IMG/VR virus record: IMGVR_UViG_3300044911_002289
Coordinates: 1-37,175 of that record
Length of the DNA stretch: 37,175 bases
From: a virus
Direction: 5' to 3' (one strand)
Positions 2,508 to 34,245 of the stretch are shown here, one piece after another. Numbering within the stretch: the first letter of the stretch is position 1; each line of letters starts with the position of its first letter. The translations under genes were made by a program, and so were the position numbers. The notes beneath the pieces are model-generated. The model had not been told where the DNA came from and did not search any database. It saw nothing but the letters and a program-made list of their open reading frames with translations.

Positions 2508-4817
2508 ATGTTTGCACCCGACCTGTCCGTTCCATTCGAAAAGAAGAAGTCCAAGGAGTTCGGGAAGGACTTTGCTACGGGCTTAGAGTCATGGCATCTG
2601 ATGCAAGTTGAAAGCCCCAATTTCCCGAAAAGGAAATGGGCGGAAAACTATCAATACGCATTAGGCAACCAAACCTATTTGCGTACCACGCAGCCAATAG
2701 ACAATCTTGTAGGAACGGATAGTCAAACGCTCCCTGGGGCTGACTTGCGGAACATGAGACTTGCCACGACAATTCTTGAAAGTATTGTTGGCAAACTTAA
2801 TAAGCAAAGGTTTCGCCCCACCATCTCCATGATTGATGCTTTGGCAATGGATGACCGCATTGACATGAAGGCAAGAATGGAGCTTGCCATGTACCTTAAA
2901 CAACAGGGCATGGAGATGGCGCAAATAACGCAACAGCTTGGCCTCACTCCTGACGATATTCCAATGGACACCACAGAGCTGCAAATCATGCTTGATTGTA
3001 TGCCGCAGTTTGTGGAAGAGATGAATCTTGAACTTGCCCTTAACAAAATAGGAAATGAAAACCACCTCGATACATTGGCAAGAATGGCTGACTATGACGA
3101 TGCCATTACAGCCGTGAGAGGCCACTACATCAATCGTGTTAATGGAAAGAAACAAATCGAATGGCTTGACCCACTTAATAGCGGTCATAGTATGTCCTTT
3201 TATCCTGATGGGCGTGACATTGTTTGGAGTTACAGAATACGGCCTGTTCCTGTTGAACAAGTTCGCATTGAAGCGCAGGAGGACCTCACGGACGACCAAC
3301 TCAAAAACCTAAGAGGAGGCCAATTCAGTCTTCTATACAATTGGCTGTTTTGGTGGAACTCCTCCAGTCAGCAAAATTTCCTGACAACATTCACAAATAC
3401 ATATACAGATTATGTTCTCGTCATGGACTTTGAGTTCGTCTCCACAGACCTACTCTATACAAATGTCAAAAACGGAAGGGCTTACAATGGATATACCAAA
3501 AAGACTCCCGGAAAAGATGGCGATGTGTACACAGCTAAAGTGCAGAACCTTTTCGGGGGTAAGTACATTTGCGGCTCTGGGTACATATACGACTATGGGG
3601 TTAAGACAGGTGTACGCCAACCTATCGTAACACGCAATGAGGATGCCTTTAAGGTGAACGCCTCAAAGGTGTACGGAAACTTTGTGTGGTATCATTCCTC
3701 AATGGTGAGAGGGGAATCCATTTCCATCATTGACAGAGCAAAGCCACATATTGACGCAATTGAGGACACCTTTAAGAAATTCAAAACATACATTCGGGAG
3801 TTTCTTCCTTGGATGATAAGGGTGGACCAAGATGCCTTGGCCGACCTTGCTTTGAAAGAAGGGGATGATGTAACGGCAGAGGACTTAATGACAACGCTCC
3901 TTGAGAGAGGAATAGGTGTTGTTTCTTCTTCCGCCTACAAAGGATTTCACAATGCCTCTGTAAAGGATGCCCTCACAATTATTTCCAATGACGGAGGAGG
4001 AAACCTTCAAGTGCTTTGGAACTTGCTCTTACAACAAATCAATCTCCTGCACGATGTTGTAGGCGTTCCTAAAATAGACACAGGAGGAGGCGTTAGCCCC
4101 GAACAAGGAAAGGCTGTAAGCCAAATGCTGCTTCAAGGAAGCGAGAACGTCCTCTCAGGATTGATGGCTGCCAAGATAGGGCTTTATACGTGTTTATGGG
4201 AAAACCTGATGTATGATATAATGCAATCAGGAGAGTCGGGGGTTGCTAAAGGAAGGGCGTTTACAATTCCTCAAGGCAATCCTGACGAGCGCATTCCCAA
4301 CCTTATTGTAGAACCTCTGCCTACGGACATGGACTGGCAGGACTTGTACAACAAGGCGCAGCAGGCTCTCGCAGCAGGAAGCCTTACAATGGACCAATAT
4401 GCCTACCTGAAAATCATTGACAACATGAAACAGGCATGGGGCTATTTGTCTGTTCAGCAAAAACGCAATGACATCAAGAAGGCGCAGATGCAACAAATGG
4501 CCGACCAAGCCAATACGGAGCGTCAAATGATGTCCAATCAGCAAGCCCAAGAAGGCAAGGAAAGGCTTGAGCAAATTAAAATTATCGGGAACGTAATTGG
4601 AGAATATGCAAAGGCGGCATTTACCAACCCTATGAATACTCAAAATCCCGAAGTAATTTTGCAGAGAATACAATTAGAATTAGAGAAAATGTATGGAAAC
4701 ACAGGAAACGCAAATGGAGAACAACAGCCTTCCGCAGGAGGGCCTCCAATTCCAACAGGAGGAGCAGAACAGCTTGCCGTTCAAGGTGGCGAAGGTGGAG
4801 GACTACCCATCGAATAG
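2508..4817 (+). CDS. Portal protein
   Basis: A 769-residue protein forming, by inference, the dodecameric portal through which DNA is packaged and ejected. Support: size typical of large podovirus portals, position directly before a scaffold-like and a capsid gene, an alpha/beta N-terminal body (for example EWLDPLNSGHSMSFYPDGRD, about residues 217-236), long helices in the stem region (about 400-560) and a helical C-terminal part with many Gln and Met. The last 40 residues are Gly/Pro/Gln-rich and disordered; the DNA there also encodes the first 41 residues of the next gene in another frame. ATG directly abuts the preceding stop. Assignment is from gene order and overall pattern, without a family search. 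Confidence 0.75.
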   Translation: MFAPDLSVPFEKKKSKEFGKDFATGLESWHLMQVESPNFPKRKWAENYQYALGNQTYLRTTQPIDNLVGTDSQTLPGADLRNMRLATTILESIVGKLNKQRFRPTISMIDALAMDDRIDMKARMELAMYLKQQGMEMAQITQQLGLTPDDIPMDTTELQIMLDCMPQFVEEMNLELALNKIGNENHLDTLARMADYDDAITAVRGHYINRVNGKKQIEWLDPLNSGHSMSFYPDGRDIVWSYRIRPVPVEQVRIEAQEDLTDDQLKNLRGGQFSLLYNWLFWWNSSSQQNFLTTFTNTYTDYVLVMDFEFVSTDLLYTNVKNGRAYNGYTKKTPGKDGDVYTAKVQNLFGGKYICGSGYIYDYGVKTGVRQPIVTRNEDAFKVNASKVYGNFVWYHSSMVRGESISIIDRAKPHIDAIEDTFKKFKTYIREFLPWMIRVDQDALADLALKEGDDVTAEDLMTTLLERGIGVVSSSAYKGFHNASVKDALTIISNDGGGNLQVLWNLLLQQINLLHDVVGVPKIDTGGGVSPEQGKAVSQMLLQGSENVLSGLMAAKIGLYTCLWENLMYDIMQSGESGVAKGRAFTIPQGNPDERIPNLIVEPLPTDMDWQDLYNKAQQALAAGSLTMDQYAYLKIIDNMKQAWGYLSVQQKRNDIKKAQMQQMADQANTERQMMSNQQAQEGKERLEQIKIIGNVIGEYAKAAFTNPMNTQNPEVILQRIQLELEKMYGNTGNANGEQQPSAGGPPIPTGGAEQLAVQGGEGGGLPIE

Positions 4818-9847: not shown

Positions 9848-10705
9848 ATGTCCACATATAATTCAAGCATAAACTACTACAGAGTTAATGCCAATAACAC
9901 AAATATAGCCAGCACTAATAGCGGAGCGGGCAATCCAACAGAGGAGATTGCAGCCCCCCTCGCAGCAGGAACATACGCTTCGGGAAGTGGAACATCCACA
10001 ATTACAGGAGCATCCACCTCAACTTTTAACGATTGGTCTGTTGGTCAGTATTTGTATTATATAGACAACAACTCGGTTTATCGCCTGCTTGGGCAGATAG
10101 CCACCATTACGGCCGCAACATACACAGTAACGCTGCAAGCCAACTCAATAACTTATAGCGCTCCGAATCAAATTGCAGTGGGAATGACTCTTGCCGCTTC
10201 TTATAGCCTTGTGACAACAACAGAAAGTTTTTACATCCGTGTTGCAACGCAACTAACAGGGGGTGGCCTTCAAGGAGGACAAGCATATATTCCATTAATG
10301 ACCTCATGGAGAACGCAGAATGTTGCATCAGCGGTGAACAACACGTCCGTGACAAAACTTGAGCGTGTGAGTAATGTAGGAACGCCCGTTTCAAACTCGG
10401 CCACTATAAATAACATTCCATTCACGCTGCGTGTACTGAATGTGTTCTCTTCTAACACAGGTTTTACAAGGTTATGGCCGAACGCAGACTTTCCTGATTA
10501 TATTTGGATAAGAGCCGACCTTTCTCCAACAGGAGCAAGCCTTGCGGGTCAAAGTATGTTCAGAATAACGACAGAAGAGACAATTGATGCCTTCTTGATT
10601 ACGCCAACCACTACACCACAACAGGCTTTTGATGCGGGGTATGTGAACATCAATCTTGACCTTGTTACAGGAGTGACAGGAGTCCCTGGCACAGGCGGCG
10701 ATTAA
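9848..10705 (+). CDS. Virion-associated protein, paralogue B
   Basis: A 285-residue Ser/Thr/Asn-rich beta protein, the second copy of the pair described for the gene at 8960. Shared blocks: VGQYLYYID then LLGQIATI (about 60-85), YIPLMTSWR (about 145-155), KLERVSNVGTP (about 170-180). The N-terminus has a Gly/Ser/Thr-rich stretch absent from its paralogue. Same size and adjacent position suggest the two proteins occupy related sites on the virion or form hetero-oligomers. Exact role unknown. Confidence 0.82.
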   Translation: MSTYNSSINYYRVNANNTNIASTNSGAGNPTEEIAAPLAAGTYASGSGTSTITGASTSTFNDWSVGQYLYYIDNNSVYRLLGQIATITAATYTVTLQANSITYSAPNQIAVGMTLAASYSLVTTTESFYIRVATQLTGGGLQGGQAYIPLMTSWRTQNVASAVNNTSVTKLERVSNVGTPVSNSATINNIPFTLRVLNVFSSNTGFTRLWPNADFPDYIWIRADLSPTGASLAGQSMFRITTEETIDAFLITPTTTPQQAFDAGYVNINLDLVTGVTGVPGTGGD

Positions 10706-10767: not shown

Positions 10768-11742
10768 ATGCCAGTATTAGCCCAAAAAATAGCTTTCTTC
10801 GCCACCGTAAGCAGGAAGGTGTCCTTTCTTAACACGCTTGCCGAATGGCAGGTGTTCGCCACAGGAGGAGCGAGCAGGGCTTTCATCACTACAAATCTAC
10901 AGGACAGCGTTTTCGTTACAGGAAGCAGACAAACGGCTTTCTACAACACCGTAAACCCCATTCCTACATTTGTTACCACAAACATAAAGGTGGCGTTTGT
11001 TGAAACCCCCGACCCCGATGCTCCAAAAGAACTACAGCCTAAGATAGGTCCGCTTATTGTAAACGCAGACCAAACAACCATCACCGTATCTGACGCAACA
11101 GGAACGTTTGACCCTGACAATCCTACGCTTGACCCCGGAGGCTTTAATCCTGAAGACGCAGAGTTTGACCCCGAAAGGCCAAAGCGGTCCGCCGTAAAGC
11201 TATGGACTGTGTACAAGCTGCACAGCAGGCCCGGCCCTCAATTTGGAAACAGCACTGTCAGCCCAAGCAATCAAGACGAGGAGGAGGACGTTCCATACAT
11301 CTACACCCTTACGCTGCCAACAGAAACAATAGACAAGGTGGCCGTTACGATTAAGGGACTGTATGAGGTGTTTCTCATAGCCGCTCCTTTTGCGCAGGAA
11401 TGGGCCGATTGGGAGGGTAACACAAACCTTGCCTCTGTTGCAAAGACATTCCCAAATTGGTATGTAGGCTCTACGCCAATAATGGTGGATGCTAATATTG
11501 CCAATTGCTTAAACAAAATGCGCTATCAATTCCTTCAGGGGGTGATGTGCGGCAGATGTGATTGCGAGTATTTCGACACGTATGGAATATATGTAGGAAT
11601 GCTCAACGCTATGGAAGCGGGGGAATGGAATGTGGCCAATGAATATTACGACAGACTAAAAATGATTTGTGCAGACATGGGGTGCTCAAGTTCCTGCGGC
11701 TCCTGCGGAAACGGTGGGTGCTCAGGTTCCTGTGGATGTTAA
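10768..11742 (+). CDS. Virion-associated protein with F/T repeats and Cys-rich tail
   Basis: A 324-residue protein with three visible regions. Residues 5-82 hold eight short units with Phe at 10, 20, 30, 39, 49, 58, 68 and 77 (spacing 9-10), each followed by Thr two or three residues on. Residues 85-170 are Pro/Asp/Glu-rich and probably flexible. The C-terminal 110 residues are helical and end in a Cys/Gly/Ser-rich tail (GCSSSCGSCGNGGCSGSCGC) preceded by a CGRCDC motif; eleven cysteines in all, suggesting metal binding or disulfide cross-linking. Lies just before the tail fibre gene, so it may be an adaptor or appendage protein. No family recognised. Confidence 0.82.
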   Translation: MPVLAQKIAFFATVSRKVSFLNTLAEWQVFATGGASRAFITTNLQDSVFVTGSRQTAFYNTVNPIPTFVTTNIKVAFVETPDPDAPKELQPKIGPLIVNADQTTITVSDATGTFDPDNPTLDPGGFNPEDAEFDPERPKRSAVKLWTVYKLHSRPGPQFGNSTVSPSNQDEEEDVPYIYTLTLPTETIDKVAVTIKGLYEVFLIAAPFAQEWADWEGNTNLASVAKTFPNWYVGSTPIMVDANIANCLNKMRYQFLQGVMCGRCDCEYFDTYGIYVGMLNAMEAGEWNVANEYYDRLKMICADMGCSSSCGSCGNGGCSGSCGC

Positions 11743-11759
11743 AATAGAGAAAACACTAT

Positions 11760-14700
11760 ATGGCTAACTTCTTAGACAACCTCTCCTCATATAACGCCAA
11801 GGCGGCGTTAGCTATTTCCAATGCTGTTGCCTGTGGCAATACGCAGAAGGCAAATATGATGAGCAGTTTGAAAAGCACGGCCAATGACACTACGCTTTCC
11901 GAAGCCGTTCGTCTCAATGCCCTAACGGCCTTAGTGAACCTTGGCAATTTGCTTGACGTTCCGCTGCCGCCGTATTTCCCAATGTCGATTCAATATGCCG
12001 ACATACAAACGTACGATGGCATACACAATGACCTCTTGGGCTTGCAAGGAGGCGCACCAAACGAATACTTTCACCTTACGTCCGCAGAAAGGGCTTCCAT
12101 TGCGGGGAAGGCAACCCTCTCTGACATTACATGGGGAAACCTTTTAGGAGGCTATTCGGACAACGCTACGTTTGCTGCATTGTTTGACGCAAAGCAGACA
12201 GCCCTTTCCGCTCCTGCCGCAGGAACCTATTTCGTTAAAATAAACGGCACGACAATAAGTTATGATAACAGTGTCTATCTTACTTCTTCTACGGGCGTGG
12301 CTTCGGGCTCGGCGGCGGGAGGCTCTTTAACAGGAAGCTACCCCAATCCCACCATTCTCAATAGTGCTGTAATTAACCAGCTTCTTACAGGATGGAATGG
12401 AAGCGGAACAAACGTTCCCGTTGAAGAATCTGACAGCATTCTTTCGGGAATGATAAAGCTGAACGCAAGGATAACCGATATTGTTAATAACCCCGGAGGT
12501 GTTTCCTCTGTTGCCCTTTCAACAAATGCTCCCGCAATATTTGATGGAACGGCAGCTCAAACGGGAGCTGCTACAGTGACGCTTGGGCTTAAACCCCAAA
12601 GCCAAAACCTGTTCCTTGCCTCAAGCAGTACAACAAATAACACGCAGCCTACGTTTCGTGCCATTGCTGTTGCTGACCTTCCTACGGCAAGTGGCGTAAC
12701 GCCTGCACAATACGGAACCACATCTCTGATTCCACAAATCACCGTGGATGCCAAGGGGCGCATAACAGCTATATCCACCGTTTCTGCTGCTGCGGGAGGG
12801 CAAGTGAATAGCGTTACGTTCAATGTTCCCGCAGGGACTATTTACAGTGTAAGTACTACAGGAAGCACCCCCGCAGACCCCGTTATAAACTTTAGCGTAC
12901 AGACTCAGGCTCCTAATACGGTGTATGCAGGCCCTTTATCGGGCTCTAATGTCGTTCCTTCCTTCCGTTCCTTAGTGGCTGCTGACATAGCAAACATTGC
13001 CATTCCGCAGAGTCAGGTGACGGGCCTTGAAGCCACGTTAAGCACATTCCTGACAGGTAGTCTTGCTAATAGTACAATATATGTTGGGAATGGGTCCGAT
13101 GCTGCTGTAGCTGGCACTGTTGCTGGCGACTTGGAAATGGTTTATGACGATAATGGTGGAAGTGACGAGGCCAGCTTTACAATTAAAGATGGGGTTGTTA
13201 CATACGATAAAATACAAGATGTAACGTCGGGAAAGATTCTTGGCCGATATTCTGCCAATGATGGGCCGCCTCAACATTTAACTCTTGATAGCACTGCCTT
13301 CACCCTAAATACAACATCGGGCGTTATTGGCCTTCAAACACCCAACCCCTCTTTGCTAACCCAAAAGGGGGATATTCTAACAAGAGGCGCAAGTGCGCCA
13401 ACAAGGCTTGGAGTGGGAGCGGACGCTACACTCTTCATGGCCGACACAGCTGCCGCAACAGGAAACAAGTGGGTGGCTATGTCGGGAGACGCAACGATAG
13501 CAGTAACGGGAGCTGTAACAATAGCTAACGGAGCCGTTACCCTTGGCAAGATGGCCAATCTTGCGGCCAACAGGATTATAGGAAACAACACAGGAAGTGC
13601 CGCTGCGCCTATTGCTCTTACGACAGCACAGGCAACGGCAATGTTGGACTTGTTCAGCACCTCAACCACTACGAAAGGACTTGTGCAGGGAAGCAATGGA
13701 GCGGACAACACATATTTCCTAAATGCGACAGGCGCTTGGTCTGTCCCAGCAGGAGGTGGTGGCGGAAGTGGTACAGTTACATCAATAGCAACAGCAGGAC
13801 TTATAAGTGGTGGTACGATAACCACAAGTGGTACGATTACCACATCAATGGCTACCAATAAACTTGTTGGTAGAGGCACGGCAGGAACTGGTGTAATGGA
13901 GGAAATTACATTAGGTACTGGACTTTCATTAACAGGAACTACATTAAACGCAACAGGTGGTGGGAGCGGAACGGTTACATCTGTTGACCTTACGATGCCT
14001 GCCGCATTTTCGGTAACCGGCAATCCAGTAACAACGTCTGGTACGTTTGCTGTCACAGGCGCAGGTACAGTTTCTCAGTACATTCGTGGAGACGGGTCGC
14101 TTGCTAACTTCCCTACATCTGGTGGAGGTGGTGGTAGTGTAAATTATTATCTGAACGGCTCTGTCACTCCATCTCCTGATGTTGTGGGATATAAGCAAAT
14201 GAGTAGGGTTGCCAATACTGGCGCAGCAGCTAACTTTACACGAACAAATACGGTGTCGTTTCAATTGATGGCCGAGTTTGTTACAGATGCAAACGACCCG
14301 GGATTATTGAGTATTCCTGCCGGGTCATGGAATTTTAGTTTTTATTTTAGCTCAAGTAATAATTCTGACAACCCTCAGTTTTATGTTGATTTATTAAAAT
14401 ATGATGGGACTACATTTACGTCTATTGCCACTGGTATTGCAAGTCCAGAAACCATTACAAATGGAACAACGATAGATTTATATAACACATCTATATCCAT
14501 TCCATCATCAACAGCATTAACTCTTACAGACAGGCTTGTAATTAGGGTGTATGTAGATACTGACGGAAATCGAACCGTAACTTTCTATACGCAGGCAACC
14601 CGTTTAGCAGAAGTATTTACAACATTCACAACAGGCTTAACGGCTCTGAATGGTTTAACGGCGCAAGTTCAATTCTTTGCCACGCCCGGAACAACAGGAC

Positions 14701-16505
14701 TTGCTCCAAACTGGAGTAGCGCAACAGCAACACACACGCTAAACATTCCTCTTGCCTCGGCAGCAAGCGTAACGGCTGGCCTTATAAGCAAGACGGACTA
14801 CGACATCTTCAACGGCAAGCTATCTAATGTTCTTACGAATACAGGTGACATTATATATTCAAGCAGTGCCACAACGGCTCAGAGGCTTGGAATAGGGACA
14901 CTTGACCAAGTATTGTCTGTGTCTGCTGGAGGCATTCCTACTTGGAGAACAATAGCGGCTGGAGGAGATGTGACAGGTCCAGCCTCAGCAACAGATGGCA
15001 ACTTTGCCGTGTTTGACCTCACAACGGGAAAGATAATCAAGGAAAGTGCCAACGCCACTTTAACATCAGCAGGAGGGGCTACATTTAATAGTGGCGTGGA
15101 TGTAGGGGTGAGTGGGCCAACAAGCGGCACCACAGGAACGCTTGTGTTCCGTAATAGTGCCAATGCTTTTACAACAACAATTCAAGCATCCACATCTGCT
15201 TCGGCAAACGCTATTTACTCATGGCCTCAACAAGGAACAGCCACTAATGGGAACTTGTTAGCAAATGACGGGTCAGGAAATTTGTTTTGGACATCTGCCG
15301 GAGCGGGAAATGTTACAACATCAGGAGTTGGTCAGGTTATTAATGGTAGTATGTTTTTCCTTTCCAATGGTCTTGAAGTTCGTGACGCAGCTCAAACAAG
15401 AAATGTCAGACTTATAGCTAATGCATCGGGAGCTGCCGGAACTTGGACTGCAACCTTCCCAACACTTACAGGAACCGTAGCATTGCTTGATAACTCTCAG
15501 ACTTTTTTAGGAGCAAAGACATTTCAGGCTGGGGTGACACTAAACACTGCTGGCACATTTTCCTCTGCGGTGGCTGCGACATTTAGTGCAACAGCGGCCT
15601 CGGGGACGCCTTCCGTTACAATAAATCCGGGGACCAACTTTAGTGTTACAAATCCTCATTTATCAATTACCAGCACAGGGGCAAATATCACTTGGATGGG
15701 TTTTGGCTCAACAGCTCTTGGGGGGTCTGGAGCCGCTAATCCGCCTGTAAACGTTGGGGCAACAGCTTCATCAAGAAGCGCAGGAACTAAAATAGTTCTA
15801 TACGCCGCTCCCAATGCAACATCTTTGGATATAGCTTTAGGTGCGGAGAGTGGCGCAATGTGGTTGTCGGCGGGTAGTAGCGCATCATCACCTATATCTA
15901 TCAAATTTTATGTGCAAAGTAGCACTAATACTGCCGTTACAAGTATTGGCCAATTTGAAAATAGCACTTCTTGTTATGGCTTAAATATACCTGTTAATGG
16001 GAGCGCAACCATTGCCTCATTACTTTTTTCCGGCACTGCTGCCTCAACTCATCAATACATTAGATTTAATAGTGGAGTCTTTGGTGACCCAGCCTTAATT
16101 TCAGCGGGTAGAAGCCTTGGTTCAAGAATTATTTTATCAGCTCAGAGCGCCGGAGCTCAATTTTATGATTTTGCAATTGGGGGTTCAGGTACAGCTTCTG
16201 TTGGGGTTTGGTTTACAAGCACAACAAGTTTTTCATTTTGGTCAAACAACAGCTCGAGCAACACATCAAACAATGTGTTAAACATTACTGGAGCAGGAAT
16301 TTTAAATCTCCCACTTGCAGCAGGTAGGTATCAGATACAAGGAGCGCAGGTGGTTGGGCCGAGAAGAACAGGATGGACTGCTCAAACAGCAACAGCAAGC
16401 AGGGCAGATTTAGGAGCAAATCCATCAACCGCTGCATTAGCATCTTTTTGTCGAGCCTTATATGATGACCTTGCAAGTTTAGTAGGACACGGACTAATTA
16501 ATTAA
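11760..16505 (+). CDS. Tail fibre / receptor-binding protein
   Basis: A 1581-residue protein rich in Ser, Thr, Gly, Ala and Asn, by far the longest gene here. It contains motifs common in phage fibres: GGSLTGSYPNPTI (about residue 187), repeated GSGTVTS blocks (about 670 and 735), and Gly-rich hinges such as a GGGGGS linker. Around 785-960 an inserted beta domain of higher complexity (aromatic residues, no Gly runs) may bind a ligand. The C-terminus, with GWTAQTATASRADL then a short helix ending in GLIN, resembles the conserved tip/trimerisation segment of many fibres. Expected to be trimeric and to determine host range. Internal DNA repeats are frequent and make it a recombination target. 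Confidence 0.88.
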   Translation: MANFLDNLSSYNAKAALAISNAVACGNTQKANMMSSLKSTANDTTLSEAVRLNALTALVNLGNLLDVPLPPYFPMSIQYADIQTYDGIHNDLLGLQGGAPNEYFHLTSAERASIAGKATLSDITWGNLLGGYSDNATFAALFDAKQTALSAPAAGTYFVKINGTTISYDNSVYLTSSTGVASGSAAGGSLTGSYPNPTILNSAVINQLLTGWNGSGTNVPVEESDSILSGMIKLNARITDIVNNPGGVSSVALSTNAPAIFDGTAAQTGAATVTLGLKPQSQNLFLASSSTTNNTQPTFRAIAVADLPTASGVTPAQYGTTSLIPQITVDAKGRITAISTVSAAAGGQVNSVTFNVPAGTIYSVSTTGSTPADPVINFSVQTQAPNTVYAGPLSGSNVVPSFRSLVAADIANIAIPQSQVTGLEATLSTFLTGSLANSTIYVGNGSDAAVAGTVAGDLEMVYDDNGGSDEASFTIKDGVVTYDKIQDVTSGKILGRYSANDGPPQHLTLDSTAFTLNTTSGVIGLQTPNPSLLTQKGDILTRGASAPTRLGVGADATLFMADTAAATGNKWVAMSGDATIAVTGAVTIANGAVTLGKMANLAANRIIGNNTGSAAAPIALTTAQATAMLDLFSTSTTTKGLVQGSNGADNTYFLNATGAWSVPAGGGGGSGTVTSIATAGLISGGTITTSGTITTSMATNKLVGRGTAGTGVMEEITLGTGLSLTGTTLNATGGGSGTVTSVDLTMPAAFSVTGNPVTTSGTFAVTGAGTVSQYIRGDGSLANFPTSGGGGGSVNYYLNGSVTPSPDVVGYKQMSRVANTGAAANFTRTNTVSFQLMAEFVTDANDPGLLSIPAGSWNFSFYFSSSNNSDNPQFYVDLLKYDGTTFTSIATGIASPETITNGTTIDLYNTSISIPSSTALTLTDRLVIRVYVDTDGNRTVTFYTQATRLAEVFTTFTTGLTALNGLTAQVQFFATPGTTGLAPNWSSATATHTLNIPLASAASVTAGLISKTDYDIFNGKLSNVLTNTGDIIYSSSATTAQRLGIGTLDQVLSVSAGGIPTWRTIAAGGDVTGPASATDGNFAVFDLTTGKIIKESANATLTSAGGATFNSGVDVGVSGPTSGTTGTLVFRNSANAFTTTIQASTSASANAIYSWPQQGTATNGNLLANDGSGNLFWTSAGAGNVTTSGVGQVINGSMFFLSNGLEVRDAAQTRNVRLIANASGAAGTWTATFPTLTGTVALLDNSQTFLGAKTFQAGVTLNTAGTFSSAVAATFSATAASGTPSVTINPGTNFSVTNPHLSITSTGANITWMGFGSTALGGSGAANPPVNVGATASSRSAGTKIVLYAAPNATSLDIALGAESGAMWLSAGSSASSPISIKFYVQSSTNTAVTSIGQFENSTSCYGLNIPVNGSATIASLLFSGTAASTHQYIRFNSGVFGDPALISAGRSLGSRIILSAQSAGAQFYDFAIGGSGTASVGVWFTSTTSFSFWSNNSSSNTSNNVLNITGAGILNLPLAAGRYQIQGAQVVGPRRTGWTAQTATASRADLGANPSTAALASFCRALYDDLASLVGHGLIN

Positions 16506-26632: not shown

Positions 26633-26953
26633 TTAGTAGTTATATCGTTCCTTGTATTCCAGATGAACCTCAAACTCCTCTGAGCCGAATTCCTTCTGCT
26701 GAAAAACAACCGTGTACCTGCAGCTAACTAAGCAGCCGCAGCAATCGTGTTGGCATCCGCAGCGATAGGCATACCCGTTTGGGCTAACACCATACGGAGC
26801 GGATATGTCTTCGTTAATGGCATCAAAATGCCTCTTAATTGCCTCCGCTCTGGAAGGTGTAAGTCGGCCCTCCAGAATCGGATGCGTTGTCCGGTAGGTT
26901 CTAAAATCAAGGTCAGCCCAAAGGCCGACCCAAGAATATTTCTCATTCATCAT
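26633..26953 (-). CDS. Hypothetical early protein with Cys cluster
   Basis: A 106-residue protein with a dense cysteine motif YRCGCQHDCCGCLVSCRY (about residues 63-80; six or more Cys and one His), likely to bind zinc or another metal. The rest is aromatic and charged with no recognised domain. ATGATGAATGAG at the start gives more than one possible initiation codon; the first is listed. Confidence 0.76.
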   Translation of the reverse strand: MMNEKYSWVGLWADLDFRTYRTTHPILEGRLTPSRAEAIKRHFDAINEDISAPYGVSPNGYAYRCGCQHDCCGCLVSCRYTVVFQQKEFGSEEFEVHLEYKERYNY

Positions 26954-32039: not shown

Positions 32040-32119
32040 AGTTGAAAATTAAATTGAATTTAAGAATTCATTTTGCTTTGTCATAGCAAAAAAGGGAGAG
32101 GCCAATGGCTTCTCTTTTT
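32040..32119 (+). ncRNA. Candidate small RNA or attenuator (three hairpins)
   Basis: Downstream of a -7 element, three successive hairpins occur in about 65 nt: TGAATT/AATTCA (32055-32070), TTTTGC/GCAAAA (32071-32091), and GAGAGGCC/GGCTTCTC (32096-32114) with T-run. No ORF is present. It could be a small RNA or a regulatory leader for the phosphoesterase gene. Confidence 0.5.
32096..32119 (+). terminator. Intrinsic terminator
   Basis: GAGAGGCC, loop AAT, GGCTTCTC (8 bp with one G-U) then TTTTTATTTT. The ATG at 32105 lies within its loop, so that codon is unlikely to start the phosphoesterase gene. Confidence 0.85.
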
Positions 32120-32129
32120 ATTTTATGCT

Positions 32130-32137
32130 TATATTTG
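32130..32137 (+). promoter_or_regulatory. Candidate -7 element for phosphoesterase gene
   Basis: TATATTTG placed directly after the terminator and 18 nt before ATG 32156. The -33 region is poor because it overlaps the terminator. Confidence 0.4.
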
Positions 32138-32155
32138 TATTTCAATACATTAGAA

Positions 32156-33178
32156 ATGACAAAATCAAGCGTTGCTCGTTCCTTTCGTGATAGATACGGA
32201 ATGGAATTGCCGACAAAGAAATTAGCAAGGATGATGTACGAGGCCCATCCCCTTCTTTTTACGAATGTGGAGGATGCAAGAAGCGTTCTGCGCTACATTG
32301 AAGGAAAGAACGGAGAAAAGAACAGGGAATACATTAAAGACAAGGAGCATTACATATACGGGGCTCGCCCTCTCAATCCCTACAGCCTCCCGGCAAGCGA
32401 CGAAAAAGAATACGTTCCACACGTTATAGAAGGGCCACAGCGAATTGCGGCCCTTTTTGATGTCCATGCCCCCTATCACAGCATAGAAGCGCTCACAGCG
32501 GCCTTAGAATGGCTACACGAGCAGGAGCCTACAATTCTCCTCATAGGAGGGGACTTCTTTGATTTCTATGGCCTGTCACGCTTTATGAAAAACCCTGATA
32601 AACGTTCTCCTGCCGAGGAAATAAGAATAGGCGTGGAATTGCTGAAGGCCCTGTACGTTGCCCTGAAGCCTAAGAACGTCATATTTAAAATGGGCAACCA
32701 CGATGAACGCTTTGAGCACTTCCTGTGGCAGAAGATGGGGGAGATGAGCGGGCTTCAAGATTTGGAGGAACTGAAGGAAATCACGCTTGAGAACATTCTT
32801 CGTAAACGGCTCGGACATGAGATGATTCCTCTTGAATTCGTGGGGGACAAGCGCATCATTAAGGCAGGCAATTTGAACATAGCTCATGGCCACGAGTTTC
32901 CTTCGGGGATAAGTTCGCCAGTGAATATAGCCAGGGGGCTTTACATGAGGGCCAAGGCAGACGCTATATGTGGCCATCACCACAGGTCATCAAATCACGT
33001 AGAACAGGACATTAACGGGCACATGATTACAACGTGGTCTGTGGGCTGCCTGTGCGACCTTCACCCCCTCTATATGCCCATTAATTCATGGAATCACGGC
33101 GTAGCCCTCATTACGCTTGACGAGGAAGGAAACGTAGACGTTCAGAACAAGCGAATAAAGAACGGGAGGATTATGTAA
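32156..33178 (+). CDS. Calcineurin-like metallophosphoesterase
   Basis: A 340-residue enzyme with all metal-binding motifs of the family: LFDVHAP (D102, H104), GGDFFDF (D133), GNHDERF (N181, H182), a later HGHEF and GHHHRSS (the two C-terminal His motifs). It is expected to hydrolyse phosphomonoester or diester bonds using two metal ions. An N-terminal helical extension (1-95) includes SSVARSFRDRYG, maybe for DNA or partner binding. ATG 32156 is used because the earlier ATG (32105) is inside a terminator hairpin. Position between DUF3310 and the helicase suggests a role in DNA or nucleotide processing. Confidence 0.86.
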   Translation: MTKSSVARSFRDRYGMELPTKKLARMMYEAHPLLFTNVEDARSVLRYIEGKNGEKNREYIKDKEHYIYGARPLNPYSLPASDEKEYVPHVIEGPQRIAALFDVHAPYHSIEALTAALEWLHEQEPTILLIGGDFFDFYGLSRFMKNPDKRSPAEEIRIGVELLKALYVALKPKNVIFKMGNHDERFEHFLWQKMGEMSGLQDLEELKEITLENILRKRLGHEMIPLEFVGDKRIIKAGNLNIAHGHEFPSGISSPVNIARGLYMRAKADAICGHHHRSSNHVEQDINGHMITTWSVGCLCDLHPLYMPINSWNHGVALITLDEEGNVDVQNKRIKNGRIM

Positions 33179-33211: not shown

Positions 33212-33700
33212 ATGGCAGAGGATAATAAAAAACAAAAAAATGGAGACAATAAAACATATCATCCAAGGATGTTTCCAGCATTTAGCAACCCTGAATATCT
33301 TTTAGAAAAAGAAGGTTCTCTTGTAAAAAAACACAGCAAACCAGAAGCAACTGCGGATAGTTCTGGTTTTTTTGTGAAACAATATATAGACCTTAAAAAA
33401 GAAAGGAATGATATTAAAAGCGGCAAAAAAAAATTAACGCTTAATCAATTTATTGACCCAAATAATCCTTACAAAAACAGAGATTATACGGGAGAGTTAA
33501 GAGAAAAAATGCACGAAGCTGCGAATAATTATTGGAGGCAAAAAGATAAAATGAAAGAAGGCATTATATTCGACCATGACAAAGACGGCCACCTCATAAA
33601 CCCCATATCCTCCAAGAAGGAAATAAAGCCAGCCGCTATTGTGACTCCCGTAAAACGGCCCTCTGAAGCCGTTATGAAAAAGCTAACAGGCAAGAAATAA
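33212..33700 (+). CDS. Hypothetical Lys-rich protein with mosaic composition
   Basis: A 162-residue, Lys/Asn-rich basic protein. The first two thirds (33230-33560) are notably AT-rich with A-runs, unlike adjacent genes, while the last part returns to the window's usual composition. No known domain; probably disordered in parts (Lys/Asn/Asp rich). It shares one base with the next gene (TAATG). Confidence 0.76.
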   Translation: MAEDNKKQKNGDNKTYHPRMFPAFSNPEYLLEKEGSLVKKHSKPEATADSSGFFVKQYIDLKKERNDIKSGKKKLTLNQFIDPNNPYKNRDYTGELREKMHEAANNYWRQKDKMKEGIIFDHDKDGHLINPISSKKEIKPAAIVTPVKRPSEAVMKKLTGKK

Positions 33701-34245
33701 TGCCCAAACACACTCCCCTTCCGTTCCATTTCTATGTGAACGTCAATAACGCCTTCCTTGGCCCCGATATGCCACAGGGCGTTACGAAAGCTATATGGCA
33801 CGGGGTGTATTGCCGGGAGTACCAAGTGCTTTCCTGCCACGTGTTCCTTGAGAGCGGGGCGCATTGGAGTGGGCTTCCAATTCAAGCATTGTCAGCCACA
33901 GAAGATTTCCGTCACGACAGCAACGTGCTGATGCCTTGGTGCGGAATGGGAGAGGAAATAGAGGCCATATATATGCCGTTCCTTGAGGGCTTAGAGGCAA
34001 GGCCAATGATTGACCCCGGCTATCCAAAAGGAAGGCACACAGGAATTATTATTGATTGGAAGGACGGCTACTCCCGCTATCCAGAGGAGCACAAGCCCCT
34101 CTCCCTCATTGCCCTTGAAACGGGACAGTTCGTTCTGTTCCCTAACAACTATGTGACGTATAAAGAAAAGCACTTTGTTAATGAGAAGGCAAAGGAGAAC
34201 ATGAAGCATTACAGGAGGGGAGAGGAAGTGTATTGGGAGAAATAA
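33700..34245 (+). CDS. Conserved-type hypothetical phage protein
   Basis: A 181-residue protein with aromatic, His- and Trp-rich patterns: IWHGVYCREYQVLSCHVFLE, SGAHWSGLPIQALS, PWCGMGEEIEAIYM, and a C-terminal VLFPNNYVTYKEKHF. Proteins with a HWSGLPxxALS-like core seem familiar from phage replication regions, but no function is assigned. Starts within the TAATG overlap. Several His and Cys could bind a metal. Confidence 0.8.
   Translation: MPKHTPLPFHFYVNVNNAFLGPDMPQGVTKAIWHGVYCREYQVLSCHVFLESGAHWSGLPIQALSATEDFRHDSNVLMPWCGMGEEIEAIYMPFLEGLEARPMIDPGYPKGRHTGIIIDWKDGYSRYPEEHKPLSLIALETGQFVLFPNNYVTYKEKHFVNEKAKENMKHYRRGEEVYWEK

Follow-up and report, generated by a model that had tools for sequence, protein, structure and literature searches.

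A divergent THA-like candidate fibre-hub protein with a conserved cysteine core in an uncultured phage

We analyzed a cysteine-rich 324-aa protein encoded in a virus record of 37,175 bases (the whole stretch of DNA studied, hereafter the window) and conclude that it is probably a divergent fibre-docking hub protein resembling tail hub protein A (THA) of crassviruses, in which the C-terminal segment would be clasped near the loop between helices 1 and 2, probably by disulfides, with a cysteine pairing that we infer. In our judgement the THA-like identity is highly probable, disulfides are the somewhat favored chemistry of its cysteines, and a docking function is presumed. The preliminary description of this DNA had guessed at a virion protein, perhaps a tail or fibre adaptor. 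The adaptor guess is now well supported, as far as sequence and modeling go, because the protein has a fold match to THA of phage crAss001, shares profile-profile similarity with the THA family and is encoded directly before a fibre gene; gene position and distant homology likewise favor the assignment to the virion. If correct, this reading gives a putative role to a protein that has no match in Pfam, PHROGs or named phages. It would also place fibre hubs of the crassvirus type in a group of uncultured phages in which crassvirus profiles recognize neither capsid nor ring proteins, and would supply a simple signature, a cysteine at the first loop of the helical domain combined with a CxC at the C-terminus, for detecting hubs overlooked by profile searches.

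The protein and its relatives

The protein contains 11 cysteines (residues 247, 261, 264, 266, 301, 306, 310, 313, 318, 322 and 324), and residues 261 to 266 read CGRCDC, confirming the cysteine-rich C-terminus pointed out earlier, except that the last 20 residues hold six cysteines rather than five. Cysteine accounts for 3.4% of its residues as against 0.30% in the other genes up to position 16505, and the binomial probability of at least six cysteines in 20 residues is 4e-9 at a background of 0.70%, the value for the other 29 of 30 chosen ORFs, so that chance composition is ruled out. A stretch like this is rare, yet it has one counterpart, since one more of the 30 ORFs counted also has six cysteines within 20 residues; this 106-aa ORF (26633–26953, minus strand) possibly encodes a small metal-binding protein. 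The suggestion that this richness is rare for a cytoplasmically assembled phage protein holds within the window but has a precedent in crassvirus THA, in which all 11 aligned proteins keep at least three cysteines. The features discussed below are listed in Table 1.

Table 1. Positions of the THA-like gene, its parts and neighboring or related genes (window coordinates unless a contig is named)
Feature	Position	Strand	Basis or remark
Muzzle-like tail protein fragment, apparently cut by the contig end	2–1669	+	phrog_14478
Tandem paralogues, 284 and 285 aa	8960–9814, 9848–10705	+	284-aa protein weakly matches tail PHROGs
THA-like protein gene, 324 aa	10768–11742	+	ORF; homologues in 13 further contigs
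N-terminal region, residues 1–84, short repeat-like	10768–11019	+	pLDDT <50; missing in the divergent homologue of L007
Fibronectin-III-like beta domain, residues 85–240	11020–11487	+	AlphaFold model; FN3 matches over about residues 87–242
Three-helix domain, residues 242–303, core cysteines 247/261/264/301	11491–11676	+	Model, conservation
CGRCDC, loop between helices 1 and 2	11548–11565	+	Composition, model, alignment
Variable Cys/Gly/Ser tail, residues 304–324, six cysteines, CGC end	11677–11739	+	
Direct repeat copies within the long tail	11680–11735	+	11680–11699 and 11716–11735, 90% identical, 36 nt apart; further copy, 65%, at 11689–11708
Tail-fibre-like protein, 1581 aa	11760–16505	+	Directly 3′ of the THA-like gene
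Insert-bearing hub-like genes of relatives	L016 6614–8806; L017 15131–17323; L022 6018–8279		

No relative of the protein was found by tblastn in 50,697 records of named phages, and a further tblastn search of named phages gave nothing better than E 4. Pfam contained no family for it at E up to 1, PHROGs gave no match, and neither a single-sequence scan of viral contigs nor a profile search of genome contigs revealed a relative. Fifteen related IMG/VR contigs were recruited through the portal or the 481-aa protein in the capsid position, and a further one (L022) came from a search with a C-terminal-domain profile, making 16 distinct contigs; other recruited loci were repeats of the same contigs. 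Among the 15, L002, L004 and L008 end before the locus, and all 12 that cover it carry a homologue; the gene is present in L022 by construction, as this contig was found only through the query protein. L039 also carries the gene and was left out of the alignments because its HMM scores equaled those of L034. The Elemovirus portal is 20% identical to that of the window, and no homologue of the 324-aa protein was detectable in the stretch of the Elemovirus locus that was searched. Several matches were discarded: that to phrog_13045 was put down to chance, being a single match in four records, away from the gene, while 4 of 14 control genomes also matched; weak PDB sequence matches to SRP68 and an ERH fusion were likewise judged to be chance; and MW202484 had only a tail-fibre stretch in common.

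Resemblance to crassvirus tail hub protein A

The AlphaFold model of the window protein had a mean pLDDT of 69, with residues 85–304 above 50 and mostly above 70 and with residues 1–84 and 305–324 below 50; its beta domain is followed by predicted helices at 242–260, 266–284 and 287–303. A homologue model built from 13 sequences reached a pLDDT of 87 and a pTM of 0.84. For both models, the top PDB matches were tail chains of crAss001, 7qoj_G, which is tail hub protein A gp38, and 7qol_W, from an entry that contains the same sequence. In VIA-align, the window model matched 7qol_W with Z 8.8 (rmsd 4.1, 154 residues aligned) and 7qoj_G with Z 8.8 (rmsd 4.2, 159 aligned); the homologue model gave Z 8.6 (rmsd 3.8, 157 aligned) and Z 8.3 (rmsd 3.9, 159 aligned), respectively. 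Thus, two models recover the two-domain gp38 fold, but the best unrelated PDB matches stood at Z 8.0 for the window model and 7.4 for the homologue model, a small margin over FN3 structures given that differences below 1 count as ties and that FN3 folds are common. With Foldseek, the window model had no PDB match at E 0.001, and 7qoj_G ranked eighth at E 4e-3.

A viral structure library also yielded matches. The window model matched a 186-aa "structural protein" of phi14:2 (E 1.7e-4), which we take by its length to be g087, as well as cr111_1 (E 1.3e-3) and cr118_1 (0.16); the cr111_1 protein, identified by length, has the 206 aa of the THA homologue that tblastn from gp38 finds in that phage. 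With the homologue model, the matches were phi14:2 (4e-3), phi17:2 (5e-3), cr118_1 (0.013) and cr111_1 (0.07), so that those to phi14:2 and cr111_1 were weaker than with the window model. Podoviridae sp. ctz6O13 was among the two best matches in each run.

Profile comparison provided a second line of evidence. When the 13 aligned members were compared with 11 crassvirus THA proteins, hhalign gave 65% (E 6e-5, one comparison), and restricting the comparison to the C-terminal domain gave 69%. A separate run gave 49% and a score of 36.7, a score reached by none of 150 column-shuffled THA profiles, which attained at most 3.3% and 24.5; a reversed profile gave 0.2% and a portal alignment 0.1%. These results point to remote homology with THA. 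The alignment starts where helix 1 ends and continues through to the C-terminus, and the terminal CxC columns of both families coincide. In the loop, C261 lies opposite THA C161, and C163, which is invariant in THA, lies opposite R263; in helix 3, C301 is two columns from THA C204. Given these offsets, the match between the two families is only approximate for the cysteines of the loop and of helix 3. In THA, C163, C211 and C213 are present in 11 of 11 proteins, with the terminal pair appearing once as CC, and the window family has the same arrangement of a loop cysteine (C264, 13/13) and two terminal ones (CxC, 12/13), the loop match being approximate. None of the 13 records matched the Pfam model crAss_THA (PF25724) at E up to 10; for this reason we use the term THA-like and do not assign the protein to PF25724. 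The same model also misses phi14:2 g087, itself from a crassvirus, which hhalign linked to neither family.

Genomic setting

The genes are arranged in the order muzzle-like fragment, 278 aa, portal, 352 aa, 481 aa, 334 aa, 157 aa, 284 aa, 285 aa, THA-like protein and 1581 aa. Gene order and composition suggest that the 352-aa, 481-aa and 1581-aa products are the scaffold, capsid and fibre proteins, respectively, and the portal matches phrog_6547 by profile. The portal ORF shares up to 125 nt (4693–4817) with the ORF after it, the two being read in different frames, and an overlap also occurs in L007 near 12219–12319. The 1581-aa fibre-like protein is the likely docking partner of the THA-like protein. 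A homologue of its N-terminus lies directly 3′ of the hub-like gene in 11 loci, and in L007 a 1089-aa ORF directly follows that gene.

The tandem 284-aa and 285-aa paralogues are probably tail appendage proteins. In three relatives, the hub-like protein is about 730–753 aa long and contains five copies of a domain related to them. L007 is without both of these genes and also without the N-terminal repeat region of the hub-like protein, and because of this joint absence the paralogues and the repeat region may work together.

At the opposite end of the gene cluster, the muzzle-like fragment of the window did not itself match crAss_MUZ, and its full-length counterpart in L007 (5911–9192) matched both phrog_14478 and crAss_MUZ. 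Muzzle-matching genes encode 1093–1144 aa in four relatives, and in L007 the gene lies upstream of the portal; Elemovirus gp22, which lies downstream of the portal, also matches. In total, crAss_MUZ matched six of nine records at E up to 1 and five over the cut-off (four of eight window-group records plus Elemovirus), and none of 14 control genomes. The profiles Crass_capsid, Ring_1 and Ring_3_4 each matched none of the nine records, Elemovirus included. Judging from these profile matches, the phages of the window group seem to combine a tail tip of crassvirus type with a capsid and rings whose proteins have diverged too far to be recognized. No crAss_THB match was obtained among the 19 window proteins scanned, where divergence may hide one. 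Elsewhere in the window, a 181-aa protein (33700–34245) matches phrog_3704, annotated as ferredoxin (E 9e-11), and a calcineurin-like phosphoesterase domain (PF00149, E 3.5e-8) is encoded at 32105–33178.

Conserved cysteines and the C-terminal clasp

Conservation of the cysteines had been proposed in the preliminary description as a check on its suggestion, and the check succeeded for the core but not for the most conspicuous residues. C247, C264 and C301 are invariant in the 13 aligned members, C261 is present in 12 (missing in L007), and a Cys-x-Cys closes the C-terminal end in 12, the remaining member (L034) having its CGC within an extended tail. The full alignment has 16 invariant columns, and cysteine occupies four of them (hypergeometric P 0.001). 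By contrast, C266 occurs in the window protein only, and the tails after C301 vary in length (8–23 residues) and in cysteine number (2–6), that of the window being the longest. Since the core is conserved and the tail variable, the alignment argues that the core cysteines are under selection and that the extra tail cysteines, the eye-catching feature stressed earlier, seem to be mostly a local expansion. The key conserved feature is the core rather than the long tail.

How these residues might act is suggested by crAss001. As described in PMC10172136, each hub is built from two THA subunits and one THB, and twelve such hubs sit as a collar on rings 1 and 2. According to the same paper, the hubs grip the N-terminal end of the trimeric fibre, and hub–hub and hub–ring contacts are stabilized by disulfides. 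Because of these disulfides, cross-links in the THA-like protein are plausible by analogy. We propose that THA-like subunits would form a collar around the short tail and hold the N-terminus of a trimeric tail fibre, with the beta domain and the three-helix domain making up the hub body. From the order of the helices, the loop cysteines, the helix-3 cysteine and the tail are predicted to lie at one end of the three-helix domain, with C247, close to where helix 1 begins, expected at the opposite end. This predicted layout leads us to propose that tail and loop are clasped together, either inside one hub or from one hub to the next. The segment after helix 3 would be held near the helix-1/helix-2 loop by pairing among C261/C264 in the loop, C301 in helix 3 and the terminal CxC. 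The pairs would most likely be disulfides within or between hub subunits, presumably set once the particle meets the oxidizing outside, and the clasp would stiffen the mount with no covalent bond to the fibre itself. Cysteine links confined to the hub, inside one subunit or joining two, are likelier than links to the fibre or the neighboring proteins tested because the fibre-like protein has no conserved cysteine in its first 200 residues and the commonest cysteine column reaches only 7 of 12 rows in each of the 284-aa, 157-aa and 334-aa proteins; a conserved cysteine link to fibre or neighbor genes was dropped for the same reason. Ring proteins are the other disulfide partners of hubs in crAss001, according to PMC10172136. 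On this reading, the extra tail cysteines of the window phage arose by expansion of a repeat close to the conserved terminal motif and may offer further, optional partners for pairing.

Whether those extra cysteines do anything at all is a closely balanced question. That the long Cys/Gly/Ser tail is a tolerated slippage expansion of the conserved terminal motif, with no function of its own, has in our estimate slightly under an even chance: the direct repeat in the tail DNA and the spread of tail lengths and cysteine counts over the 13 members fit it well, but eight of the 13 tails carry cysteines beyond the CxC (five cysteines in L034, four in L036 and L038), which may suggest selection for more thiols. 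The chemistry of the core could also differ. In the same hub, the loop CxxC, the helix-3 cysteine and the terminal CxC might bind zinc or an iron–sulfur cluster and so fold the C-terminal end. The spacing of CGxC resembles that of zinc knuckles, the tail protein gpL of lambda carries an iron–sulfur cluster, and the candidate ligands are conserved and should share one end of the three-helix domain. We nevertheless consider metal binding unlikely, as only one loop cysteine and two terminal ones are invariant across the 11 crassvirus THA proteins, L007 has no C261, and the main text of PMC10172136 names disulfides, the strings "zinc" and "cystein" being absent from it; that paper was the only one found on crassvirus or crAss-like phages together with disulfides.

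A more basic doubt is whether the protein is a hub, given that FN3 matches fill the structural match list and that the long inserts of three members hold five copies of the domain found in the 284-aa and 285-aa proteins. Both would suit an appendage or fibre-branch protein that has an FN3 domain and only a fold in common with THA. We regard this as distinctly unlikely, since the helical end matches THA by profile and, among the PDB matches listed, only the crAss001 tail chains align over more than 112 residues, the others covering 88 to 112, mostly in the FN3-like domain. The THA-like hub with a probable disulfide clasp is thus the reading we retain. A bolder extension of it, improbable in our view, is that a family of phage fibre hubs carries an evolvable thiol clasp, in which an invariant core and a cysteine tail expanding by slippage form a tunable lock. 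Were that so, the lock, perhaps redox- or metal-responsive, would hold the fibres fixed on free virions and might give way when the phage reaches the surface of its host.

Three proteins of known phages serve for comparison. The 171-aa gp058 of phi17:2, a virion structural protein by annotated similarity to phi4:1 gp56, matches the fold of the homologue model, as identified by name and length, and places one cysteine ahead of its final helical stretch and another close to its C-terminal end; it differs in having three cysteines in total and no CxC. The phi14:2 protein g087, whose annotation as a structural protein cites MS/MS, is likewise a fold match by name and length, and its gene lies directly before a fibre/pectate lyase gene. 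Its C-terminal half has cysteines in the pattern C...CxxC...CxxxCxxC, but it has 186 aa, a 27-residue acidic stretch after the last cysteine and no sequence-profile link to the window family. The crAss001 THA (gp38; PF25724; 7QOJ, 7QOL) differs from the window family in several respects: identity in structural alignments is 7–8%, additional cysteines in helices 1 and 3 are conserved in the window family, most members of that family have an N-terminal repeat region, and the gene 3′ of the hub gene encodes a fibre in the window family and THB in crAss001. The two nevertheless share a beta domain followed by a helical domain, a cysteine near the first helical loop together with two terminal cysteines, and a profile-profile similarity that begins at the end of helix 1 and reaches the C-terminus.
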